A DNA stretch of 64,000 bases from contig NZ_KQ948988.1 in NCBI RefSeq assembly GCF_001514265.1, positions 124,001 through 188,000 on the forward strand, in the 5' to 3' direction. Shown here one piece after another: positions 68-6,035 of the stretch (position 1 is the first letter of the stretch; each line of letters starts with the position of its first letter). Under the pieces are notes generated by a model that searched no databases, had not been told where the DNA came from, and saw nothing but the letters and a program-made list of their open reading frames with translations. The position numbers and the translations under genes are program-made. The DNA is from Streptomyces resistomycificus. GTDB taxonomy: Bacteria > Actinomycetota > Actinomycetes > Streptomycetales > Streptomycetaceae.

Positions 68-1339
68 GTGAGCAGATCCTCCACGGTGGATCTTGTCGTT
101 GTCGGACTCGGTTACGTGGGGTTGCCACTGGCTCGTTCCGCCGCCGGTGCGGGTCTGAAGGTGGTGGGCCTCGACCGCAGCCGACGGGTGGTCGACGGAC
201 TCAACGCCGGCTCCTCGCACGTGGACGACATCACGGACGCCGAAGTGCGCGCCATGCTGGAGCAGGGCTTCGAGGCGGTCGACGGGGCCGAGGTCATCGC
301 CGACGCCGCCGCGGTCGTGGTCTGCGTCCCGACCCCGCTCACCGAGCACGGCGCCCCCGACCTCGGCGCGGTGCACGCGGCGGTGGACGACATCGCCGCC
401 CACCTGCGCCCCGGCACCCTCGTCGTGCTGGAGTCGACGACCTACCCGGGCACCACCGACGAGGTCGTCCGCCCCCGCCTGGAGGCCGGTGGCCTGCGCG
501 TCGGAACCGACTTCCACCTCGCCTTCTCCCCGGAGCGCATCGACCCGGGCAACCCCTCCTTCGGCCTGGAGAACACCCCGAAGGTGGTCGGCGGCATCAC
601 CGCGGACTGCACCAAGGCCGCCCGCGCTCTCTACGAGCGTTTCGTGAACCGGGTCGTCGAGGCCAAGGGCACCCGCGAGGCCGAGATGGCCAAGCTCCTG
701 GAGAACACCTACCGGCACGTCAACATCGCGCTCGTCAACGAGATGTCGATGTTCTGCCGTGAGATCGGCGTCGACCTCTGGGACGCCATCCGCTGCGCCT
801 CCACCAAGCCGTTCGGCTTCGCGCCCTTCTACCCGGGCCCGGGCGTCGGCGGCCACTGCATCCCGATCGACCCCAACTACCTGTCGTACAAGGTGCGTTC
901 GCTCGGCATCCCGTTCCGGTTCGTGGAGCTCGCGCAGGAGATCAACCAGCGTATGCCCGTGCACGTGGTCAACCGCGCCGCGGACCTCCTCAACGACCAG
1001 GGCAAGGCCGTCCGCGGCTCCCGCGTGCTGCTGCTGGGCGTGACCTACAAGCCGGACATCTCCGACCAGCGTGAGAGCCCGGCCCTCGCGGTGGCGGAGA
1101 ACCTCCTCGCCCGGGGCGCCGAACTCGTGTACTTCGACCCGCGCGTCGAGGACTGGAAGGTCGGCGGCGAGAGCGTCGAGCGGGTGGACGACTACCTGGC
1201 CGCGGCCGAGACCGCCGACCTCACCGTGCTGCTCCAGCCGCACCGCGAGATCGACCTCGGTGAGCTCGCCGACCGCGCCCGCGCGCTCTTCGACACCCGG
1301 GGCAAGTCCGCCGACCACCCGCGGGTGGTCAAGCTGTGA
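68..1339 (+). CDS. UDP-N-acetylhexosamine-type 6-dehydrogenase (nucleotide-sugar dehydrogenase)
   Basis: Cytoplasmic enzyme of 423 residues that oxidises C6 of a UDP-sugar with two NAD+ to give a UDP-uronic acid. The N-terminal Rossmann motif GLGYVGLP lies at about residues 13-20. A central [13 protein letters not shown] segment carries the catalytic Lys/Asn, and [11 protein letters not shown] holds the active-site Cys near residue 264. The HCIPIDP form is typical of the WbpA/WbpO/WecC group acting on UDP-GlcNAc, UDP-GalNAc or UDP-ManNAc; UDP-glucose dehydrogenases usually have CFPKD. GTG start at 68, since the ATG at 60 meets a stop after two codons; no strong ribosome site is visible. Its stop overlaps the next gene's GTG by 4 bp, so the product probably feeds that glycosyltransferase. 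Exact substrate is inferred. Confidence 0.88.
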   Translation: [423 protein letters not shown]

Positions 1340-4602: not shown

Positions 4603-6035
4603 CGATTCTCCTGAACGGTGTCGAAGTAGTTCATGCCGTTGTCGCTGTACTCCTTGACGGCCGCGTCGACTTCCTTGACGGACAGCACGTCGTGGGCGTT
4701 GTAGTACAGCCAGTCCACCTTCATGTCCCAGGCGCGGTCGCCCTTGAACGGCAGATCCACGAACCAGTGGTTGAAGTTGATGGACATGCCCGCACGCGGG
4801 GCGTACTTGCCGCTGCTGCTGAAGAGCTTCCTGCCGTCCAGGCGGTACGTCACCACGTCGTCCTCGACGGTGATCATCATGGTGTGCCAGCCGTCGAGGC
4901 TCTTGTTCGTCGTGGTGTAGACGCGGTCGTTCTCCTTGTGGTCGTACCACGTCACGGTGTCGAGCTTGGGCCCGAGCCGCCCCCAGCCGCCGTTGGGCAT
5001 GTACTCGTTGTCGAGTTCGCTGTACGTCTTCCCGCTGCCGCCGATGGTGTAGAAGGTCTGGTTGACGTGGTCGCCACCCTTGCCCTCGGCCGGATCGTCG
5101 GAGAAGTGGACGCGGGCCGCGTAGGTGCCGTCGCGGAACTCGCGGCTCGCGGTGCCCAGACTGGCCTGCTCGGTACCGGACTCGGTGCCGTCGGTCCAGG
5201 CGCGCAGGTTGAGCACCTGCCCGTCGCCGAGGGTGTCCTTCGCCGCCGGGAAGGTGACCCCGTCGGCCGACCAGGTGTCCTCGATGCCCGGGCCGCCCTT
5301 GCTGGTGCGGACCAGCCAGCCGTGCTTGAAGAGCGCGGGGTCCTTGGCGCCGACGTAGCTGAAGTTGTCGAACAGCACGCCCTTGGGGGCGGCCGGCAGC
5401 GGGGCGGGCGCGGCGGACGCCTTGGCCGACTCGCCGTCCTTGCCGCCGTCGTCCGGCTCGTCACCCCAGACGAGGACACCCCGCCTGTACGCGGTGATCG
5501 CCTTCGACTCCTTGTAGGTCGTCTTGTCGGCGTCGAAGGAACGGTCGTTGGACTGCGTGAGCTTCTCGTGGTCGGCCCGGAACAGCTGGACGTCGATGCC
5601 CTTGCTGTTGGCGCCGGGCTTCAGCGTGCCCGCGTCCTCGGTGAACCGCAGCTCCAGGACGTGGTCGGCGTTCTCGGCGGACCTGTCGAGCTTCCTGACC
5701 GTCCCGGCGATGTGGGAGCAGCCGACGGCGGCCTGGACGCAGTTGTAGGCGTACGACGAGTTCGTGTCGGCCGTGAAGTAGTACCGGAGCGTCACGTCCG
5801 CGAGCGGCAGCGGCTTCTTCGACTCGTTGAGGATCTCCAGCGAGGGCCTCGCGGCCGACGCGGTGGCCGGGGTCTCGGTCCGGTACCGGACGACGAGCTC
5901 CGGCGGATCCGGGTTCGCGGCCTTCCAGACGGGATACAGCGCCGTGGCACCGGCGGCGACCACACAGACCAGCAGGAGCAGCCTGATCTTGGGCCAGACC
6001 CGACGTCGGGGTGGGCGGCGGCGGGTGGTCGCCAC
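4599..6035 (-). CDS. Membrane-anchored or secreted CBM3 plus GH16-like concanavalin-fold protein
   Basis: 478-residue protein with a basic N terminus and one hydrophobic segment (about 18-40), acting as signal or anchor. Residues about 45-185 resemble a family 3 cellulose-binding module: RPSLEILNESKKPLPLADV, an internal Cys pair and the closing VLVWGDEP. After a charged, Ala-rich linker, residues about 205-450 resemble a GH16-type beta-glucanase/lectin jelly roll. ELDNE (about 338-342) fits the ExDxE catalytic pattern, so an active endo-glycosidase is plausible but unproven. The GTG at 6035 is preferred to the frame's first GTG at 6059 because GAAGGAG sits 8 bases before it. First gene of a coupled pair with the deacetylase, convergent with the polysaccharide synthase genes. 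Confidence 0.75.
   Translation of the reverse strand: MATTRRRPPRRRVWPKIRLLLLVCVVAAGATALYPVWKAANPDPPELVVRYRTETPATASAARPSLEILNESKKPLPLADVTLRYYFTADTNSSYAYNCVQAAVGCSHIAGTVRKLDRSAENADHVLELRFTEDAGTLKPGANSKGIDVQLFRADHEKLTQSNDRSFDADKTTYKESKAITAYRRGVLVWGDEPDDGGKDGESAKASAAPAPLPAAPKGVLFDNFSYVGAKDPALFKHGWLVRTSKGGPGIEDTWSADGVTFPAAKDTLGDGQVLNLRAWTDGTESGTEQASLGTASREFRDGTYAARVHFSDDPAEGKGGDHVNQTFYTIGGSGKTYSELDNEYMPNGGWGRLGPKLDTVTWYDHKENDRVYTTTNKSLDGWHTMMITVEDDVVTYRLDGRKLFSSSGKYAPRAGMSINFNHWFVDLPFKGDRAWDMKVDWLYYNAHDVLSVKEVDAAVKEYSDNGMNYFDTVQENR

Follow-up and report, generated by a model that had tools for sequence, protein, structure and literature searches.

The first 6 kb of a 64,000-nucleotide stretch of the Streptomyces resistomycificus genome (the window hereafter; positions 124001-188000 of its contig, in a genome of 9.18 Mb) consist of two convergent, tightly coupled gene pairs that appear to be devoted to a surface polysaccharide. 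The plus strand carries a nucleotide-sugar 6-dehydrogenase of the N-acetylhexosamine (HexNAc) type (68-1339, GTG start), assigned by Pfam and NCBIfam profiles, a PDB search, a tree, active-site signatures and gene context, followed by a membrane-bound glycosyltransferase family 2 (GT2) synthase of the class I hyaluronan synthase (HAS) family (1336-3069, also with a GTG start), assigned by PDB searches, alignment and hydrophobic segments; a single GTGA serves as the stop of the first gene and the start of the second. On the minus strand, TTGA plays the same double role between the gene for a membrane-anchored protein with CBM3 and GH16/ConA-like parts (4599-6035; CBM_3 match, an ELDxEY motif of the ExDxE kind and an N-terminal hydrophobic segment at residues 19-37) and that for a CE4 polysaccharide deacetylase of the NodB/IcaB/HfsH type, predicted to be secreted (3142-4602, TTG start; Pfam and motifs). 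Between the two pairs, a perfect 20-bp inverted repeat with a four-base loop (3088-3107 and 3112-3131), read directly from the sequence, resembles a terminator. The GC content at third codon positions is 0.94-0.97 across the four genes, all of their frames are open and none of the four contains a TTA codon. An earlier note on this DNA had described a hyaluronan-synthase-like gene overlapping a dehydrogenase gene and facing a coupled secreted pair, and this layout is borne out, with the first overlap at 1336-1339; the HCIPIDP motif is indeed present in the translated dehydrogenase, as are VDSDT, GDDR, QQVRWNKSFFRES and GSWGTR in the synthase. We take the four genes as the unit because no flanking gene resembles polysaccharide biosynthesis, and since they are kept as a set in other species their arrangement is not due to chance.

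Judged by its sequence, the synthase is a member of the class I HAS family, in agreement with the earlier note. Besides its Pfam match (Glyco_tranf_2_3), it has the DxD, GDD(R) and QxxRW motifs, the WGT(R) gating loop and a whole-length profile match. A search of solved structures with the single sequence returned only hyaluronan synthases at E<0.001, and a profile of 28 synthase homologues scored 250.6 bits with CvHAS and 242.4 bits with XlHAS1, the next PDB entries being a GT2 enzyme (82), a chondroitin synthase (79), a chitin synthase (66) and a cellulose synthase (57 bits), in a list that held no NodC structure. The accessible parts of two structural reports describe Lys177 and Arg341 of CvHAS as a carboxylate sandwich (PMC12987647) and place the channel arginines R287 and R296 of XlHAS1 near glucuronic acid (GlcA) (PMC11750622). 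The first pair aligns with K159 and R319 of our synthase (allowing for what we infer to be an offset of one between the chain numbering and that of the paper) and the second with R226 and R235, so that both channel arginines are kept. The NodC of R. tropici has a Glu at the R226 position; since it also keeps K159, R319 and R235, only R226 separates the synthase from NodC. These basic channel residues favour a carboxylate-bearing chain, short of proof. The C-terminal tail (residues about 470-577, window 2746-3069) is rich in Gln, Pro and Gly and falls outside the alignments with solved HAS enzymes.

HAS-family synthases also occur in 19 IMG/VR viral contigs (L189-L207), with up to 47% identity to that of the window, and in the Streptomyces phage Kromp (gene 79, L103; a related entry is L081:9198-10574). 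No dehydrogenase was found in the examined flanks of the 19 viral contigs. Capsule-type synthases may be part of the cargo that phages carry.

The dehydrogenase has the UDPG_MGDP_dh domains of Pfam. Its NCBIfam scores descend from WecC (255.2 bits) and the archaeal UDP-ManNAc dehydrogenase (251) through TviB (189.9), AglM (166) and TuaD (114) to Ugd (38), all under the curated cut-offs (459 bits for WecC and 592 for TviB), and its best PDB matches are Cap5O and an archaeal UDP-ManNAcA dehydrogenase. The HCIPIDP motif was rejected as a proof of substrate on its own; the assignment draws instead on the tree, on another active-site signature, on gene context and on whether the genome holds a WecB. 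A tree of 47 rows separates 11 of the UDP-Glc type (E. coli Ugd, 3vtf, the three paralogues that the same genome carries elsewhere, five synthase-linked rows and an E. faecium row) from the 36 others, among them WecC, Cap5O, TviB and the window enzyme (100/98). The latter lies within a 30-row group together with TviB (100/99), TviB here being a Phaeobacter gene that bears this name in its record and has a long branch; a clustering with UDP-glucose dehydrogenase, which the earlier note had named as the outcome contrary to its prediction, is absent. The window enzyme also shows SPERIDPG (PERxxPG) and GGHCxxxDP, the WbpA/TviB-type signatures, where the UDP-Glc-type rows have PEFLREG- or PEFTAEG-like and D.R[IL]G...GG.C.PKD stretches. 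By HCIPIDP, SPERIDPG and the tree, its sequence is thus not that of the UDP-glucose 6-dehydrogenase partner of a hasA-hasB operon.

The gene context of its relatives points in a similar direction. We considered 29 loci with enzymes 45-67% identical to that of the window, taken from the top-scoring matches in 396 Actinomycetota genomes; 33 of their 86 neighbouring frames, covering 27 of the loci, were profile-scanned. A Gfo/Idh/MocA oxidoreductase adjoins the dehydrogenase in 8 of the 29, all with relatives of 45-52% identity, and a DegT aminotransferase in one; for each of the three oxidoreductases checked the best NCBIfam model is the archaeal UDP-GlcNAc 3-dehydrogenase (159-180 bits, cut-off 450). 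WbpA, according to the part of PMC10622841 available to us, converts UDP-GlcNAc to UDP-GlcNAcA, with WbpB and WbpE acting next. These neighbour pairs match the WbpA-WbpB-WbpE arrangement and hence favour HexNAc substrates, as does the genome G067, where a 67%-identical dehydrogenase has, two genes away, a WecB scoring above its cut-off (279 bits, cut-off 210), though neither context occurs at the window itself. With the tree, the two signatures and this context, the placement of the enzyme on the UDP-HexNAc rather than the UDP-Glc side, as claimed beforehand, has held up, and its predicted reaction is probably UDP-GlcNAc to UDP-GlcNAcA.

Some relatives of the dehydrogenase have lost the catalytic Cys, which is replaced in all four inspected (GGHAVPQD, GGPSVPID, GGHGVPVD and GGHAVPQD) from this set: L005 / L012:7197-8426, on contig C12 of the same genome and two genes from guaB, with L122, L123 and L245. 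They are possibly a conserved family member that, to judge by this residue, is no longer a dehydrogenase.

As for the secreted pair, the CBM3 assignment can be regarded as certain from its profile matches: CBM_3 scores 52.4 bits in the window protein (cut-off 22.4) and matches 22 of 22 family members, and the family profile gives 135 bits against 6d5b. The remainder of this protein is more elusive. The ELDxEY or EMDxEY stretch (E340, D342 and E344) is invariant in the 22 members, and ExDxE is the catalytic motif of GH16; PF00722, the GH16 family itself, gives a weak match in 2 of the 22 (best E 1.3e-4) and none in the window protein, while Laminin_G_3 matches family members weakly and no credible PDB sequence match was found for the GH16/ConA-like domain. 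The structure models of this protein and of the deacetylase (mean predicted local distance difference test scores of 49.6 and 38.3) are too poor for fold comparison. The deacetylase, with a Polysacc_deac_1 score of 37 bits (cut-off 23.1), shares the CE4 metal and catalytic residues (TFDD, H315/H322, FAYPHG and LCLH) invariantly with its relatives, 14 of 14 in all; the HfsH and IcaB models of NCBIfam match it below cut-off. It has a twin-arginine-like signal (SRRAALL) and an N-terminal extension, and the N-terminus is twin-arginine-like in nearly all of the 14.

The GH16-like family is broad, being present in at least 146 of 293 genomes of the order (E 1e-30), with many rows 36-40% identical; a synthase match of any kind (E 1e-50) is present in 34 of the 293. 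Among ten GH16-like loci hand-picked outside the intact four-gene set, five have an adjoining GT2 synthase (GH16-like proteins 46-50% identical); one of these synthases is a 62% relative of MatB (L283), and the locus L280 also has a 68%-identical deacetylase. Three others (36-43%) adjoin a GH20 beta-N-acetylhexosaminidase; of the remaining two, one is a decayed counterpart of the window's site and the other has neither neighbour. From such surroundings the GH16-like protein appears to be a tailoring enzyme of general use, acting on HexNAc-containing polymers made by synthases, a role that fits an amino-sugar polymer without singling out an acidic one. A deacetylase paralogue (45-46%) is also found on contig C3 of the same genome (L278:7236-9500), in a phage-like stretch with a Pfam phage terminase small subunit nearby.

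Short conserved peptides of the synthase, a probe that by design finds close relatives only, picked out, from 84,980 species genomes, 46 orthologous loci, all titled Streptomyces and with synthases 76-96% identical (L042 and L043 come from the same strain). The dehydrogenase is adjacent in 45 of them, the GH16-like gene is present in 42 and the deacetylase in 40, some of the misses being contig ends. The module is still together at L046-L049, L053 and L055, where fadB lies outside the stretch examined and the GH16-like gene is upstream and divergent, the relocated module of L049 having lost its deacetylase; in L050 a deletion has removed the dehydrogenase together with the N-terminal 129 residues of the synthase, leaving the deacetylase and GH16-like genes. 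A synthase at least 75% identical is present in 4 of 150 genomes of the genus and 19 of 293 of the order (the window's own included). Further afield, G539, from another family of the order, has the dehydrogenase, synthase and GH16-like genes in one co-directional run. G544, G547 and G779 each have a synthase of 42-44% identity with the GH16-like gene behind it and no HexNAc-type dehydrogenase linked to the two, the unlinked relatives of that enzyme being 47-49% identical in G779 and at best 39-41% in G544 and G547. Searches at E 1e-10 did not find the deacetylase in the genomes of seven relatives (G539, G544, G547, G779, G732, G331 and G022); in G475 a 68% relative of it stands beside another GT2 synthase. 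Because synthase and GH16-like gene pairs occur without a linked HexNAc-type dehydrogenase, and the deacetylase was not found in these seven genomes, the synthase and the CBM3/GH16-like protein look like the older core, with the dehydrogenase and deacetylase as additions. G608 retains, at the corresponding dxs-fadB site (L287:6474-7583), a stop-interrupted GH16-like gene and nothing else of the set, no dehydrogenase, synthase or deacetylase having been found in the 14-kb stretch.

What, then, would this locus make? We favour, with a probability of roughly one half (0.52), an acidic, amino-sugar, partly deacetylated polymer of the HAS type that would contain a HexNAc-uronate. The dehydrogenase, from its family, signatures and the gene context of its relatives, would produce the UDP-HexNAc-uronate by oxidising UDP-GlcNAc or, with lower likelihood, UDP-GalNAc. 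The synthase would use this uronate, probably in alternation with UDP-GlcNAc, extruding the chain through its own channel, whose basic residues correspond to the carboxylate-handling ones of hyaluronan synthases. Outside the cell the CE4 enzyme would strip some of the N-acetyl groups to give an amphoteric chain, and the anchored CBM3/GH16-like protein might hold it and cut or transglycosylate it, as do synthase-paired hydrolases elsewhere. This is essentially the acidic, partly deacetylated amino-uronic polymer of the earlier note, of which the enzyme families stand; the predictive weight given to the dehydrogenase type and to the secreted pair is reduced, the former switching among related synthases and the latter being found beside other synthases as well. 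A more specific version can be put forward only tentatively, and we rate it as doubtful: that a single HAS-type enzyme polymerises UDP-N-acetylhexosaminuronate, alone or alternating with UDP-GlcNAc, before partial deacetylation, and that the HAS synthases of Actinomycetota switch their acid precursor through dehydrogenase exchange. Such a chain would be glycosaminoglycan-like with an amino-sugar uronate, in effect either a 6-oxidised chitin or a hyaluronan with GlcNAcA in place of GlcA.

A number of observations weigh against the HexNAc-uronate polymer. CalS8, which we take to be a TDP-glucose enzyme, falls, on a long branch (like TviB, 3g79 and L086), among the 36 rows of the HexNAc side, and so the side of the tree is by itself no proof of substrate; moreover, in the sources consulted no characterised member was found of the 29-row group that holds the window dehydrogenase. 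Among the ten relatives closest to it (56-67%), none of the nine scanned has a Gfo/Idh/MocA neighbour, their neighbours being an ABC transporter, glycosyltransferases, an asparagine synthase, a methyltransferase, a cell-wall-binding protein and others; as that context is confined to more distant relatives, our confidence in the HexNAc-uronate, and in the more specific version above, is slightly lowered. The CBM3/GH16-like protein and the deacetylase are no sign of this particular polymer, since they also accompany MatB-like and other GT2 synthases, and the synthase and GH16-like pairs of G544, G547 and G779 tell in the same direction. HAS-like synthases also appear to change their dehydrogenase repeatedly. 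Neighbours of the HexNAc type are found in the window group, L171, L083/L231, L188, L086, L094, L238 (1 kb away) and another locus of the window's genome (C5), and neighbours of the UDP-Glc type on E. faecium and Lactococcus plasmids, on S. canus and NBC_01361 plasmids, and in G580 and G613, as well as on the opposite strand from the synthase in G732, G779 and G807. In the tree of 28 synthases the starred branches force 6 (HexNAc) and 5 (UDP-Glc-type) changes, and the dehydrogenase labels are no more clustered than shuffled ones (92 and 154 of 500 as low). Since synthases as closely related as those of L188 (HexNAc type) and L102 (UDP-Glc type), 72.2% identical, carry either type, the dehydrogenase alone cannot fix the product: either the product switches with the exchange of the dehydrogenase, or both types do the same job. 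Nor did the synthase itself yield a marker of the dehydrogenase type. Residue 250 of its switch loop (A250), spotted by eye beforehand, is A or C in 7 of the 8 HexNAc-type rows of the first alignment, and all 6 of the UDP-Glc-type rows have S or P there. When rows were added, A or C was found in 7 of 10 HexNAc-type rows, in 0 of 8 UDP-Glc-type rows and in 1 of 41 rows whose synthase has no dehydrogenase linked to it; with one row per lineage the first two counts became 5 of 7 and 0 of 6. This candidate was rejected, a scan of all columns giving 6 such columns where permutation gave 8.4 on average (232 of 500 permutations as high).

Two further pairings of a synthase and a dehydrogenase deserve mention. 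The second pair of the same genome (L011:8962-11877, contig C5) is 48% (dehydrogenase) and 24-28% (synthase) identical to that of the window, and a masked stretch comes after it. On the E. faecium and Lactococcus plasmids (L101:4681-7098 and L109:1105-3522), the HAS-like synthase and UDP-Glc-type dehydrogenase lie near a VanZ-family gene and constitute a mobile hasA-hasB-like pair.

The best surviving alternative, although we consider it unlikely, is that hyaluronan, or a GlcA-GlcNAc polymer close to it, is the product of the locus, with UDP-GlcA supplied either by the window dehydrogenase in spite of its motif or by a UDP-Glc-type paralogue. Hyaluronan synthases are, after all, the nearest solved structures, relatives with a UDP-Glc-type dehydrogenase beside the synthase do exist (those on the plasmids and in G580, G613, G732, G779 and G807), and the frequent switching is what one might expect if the two types were interchangeable; however, the tree and both signatures put the window enzyme on the HexNAc side, and with three UDP-Glc-type enzymes already in the genome a further supplier would be redundant. 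More improbable still is a neutral chitin- or PNAG-like homopolymer (PNAG, poly-N-acetylglucosamine), deacetylated by the CE4 enzyme, with the dehydrogenase feeding a minor branch or another pathway. The NodC model TIGR04242 of NCBIfam gives the synthase 176.8 bits (below its cut-off of 550), G544 and G547 have the synthase and GH16-like gene without a linked dehydrogenase, and GH16-like and CE4 genes accompany MatB-like synthases, MatAB being the PNAG system of Streptomyces as far as the available part of PMC5972031 relates. Yet the dehydrogenase and synthase genes overlap and stay together in 45 of the 46 close orthologues, the L050 deletion removed the dehydrogenase along with the N-terminus of the synthase, and R226 is an Arg as in HAS where NodC has a Glu. 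Finally, a WecC-like dehydrogenase acting on UDP-ManNAc, and hence a polymer with ManNAcA, is very improbable: WecC is the top-scoring NCBIfam equivalog and WecB accompanies the dehydrogenase of G067, but the WecC score falls well short of its cut-off and no WecB homologue was found in the window's genome (TIGR00236, E 0.001, a search positive in 11 of 14 control genomes), which makes UDP-ManNAc an unlikely substrate here.

In the 16 kb upstream of the locus, where genes were called by a script and four proteins profile-scanned, no further polysaccharide gene was recognised. A row at L010:3096-11971, between dxs/permease and the dehydrogenase, comprises an FxsB-type radical-SAM peptide maturase (542 bits, cut-off 370), an AAC(3)-like acetyltransferase (235 bits with Pfam; 159 with NCBIfam, cut-off 270), an unassigned protein and a TIR/NB-ARC/TPR protein. 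The other upstream genes, named by eye, are dxs-like, a permease, a hydrolase and a 6-phosphogluconate-dehydrogenase-like gene, and fadB- and fadA-like genes, also named by eye, lie downstream. We found no published account of the locus in the open-access literature, closed-access work lying outside the search; the S. coelicolor orthologues are presumably SCO6021-SCO6025, names for which the literature matches concern only Salmonella/Cronobacter phage and Cronobacter.

Were the HexNAc-uronate polymer real, the HAS mechanism, in which one active site uses two donors, would extend to amino-uronates, giving a natural system for how a single site discriminates its donors and a genetic source of a new acidic or amphoteric polysaccharide; the related synthases beside one or the other type of dehydrogenase form a comparison set that makes the question directly testable. 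Streptomyces makes the PNAG of MatAB and a cellulose-like glucan (CslA); a charged polymer would then be added as the third, with a possible bearing on aggregation and adhesion. MatAB and CslA-GlxA are likewise synthase-dependent surface polysaccharide systems with a deacetylase (MatB) and accessory enzymes, and a GH16-like relative stands beside the MatB relative of L283, but their synthases belong to a different subfamily (28% identity to MatB) at a separate locus. Other synthase-dependent polymers have deacetylase and glycosidase partners in PgaB, PelA and HfsH, whereas the window has two separate coupled genes and a hydrolase of the GH16/ConA type. NodC-NodB also joins a related GT2 synthase to a CE4 deacetylase; unlike the window synthase, NodC (28% identical) has the Glu at R226, and its 4.2-kb stretch (L104) holds no dehydrogenase. 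With the WbpA/TviB UDP-GlcNAc 6-dehydrogenases, represented in our comparison by TviB and not by WbpA itself, the window enzyme shares both signatures, its position in the tree and distant relatives in WbpA-WbpB-like pairs, but it would feed a processive synthase and not an O-antigen or Vi pathway, and it stays below the TviB cut-off. The gsf exopolysaccharide cluster of Actinoplanes missouriensis, as described in the accessible part of PMC13390465, also combines GT2 enzymes with a predicted UDP-ManNAc/GlcNAc dehydrogenase (AMIS_70390), but it has eleven genes, is GtrA-dependent and, in that part, includes no single HAS-type synthase. The nearest parallels are class I HAS (CvHAS, XlHAS1) and the streptococcal hasA-hasB, which have the same GT2 enzyme with DxD, GDDR, QxxRW and a WGTR gating loop and the same adjacency to a dehydrogenase gene; at our locus, however, that dehydrogenase is of the HexNAc and not the UDP-glucose type, and a deacetylase and a CBM3/GH16-like protein are added.

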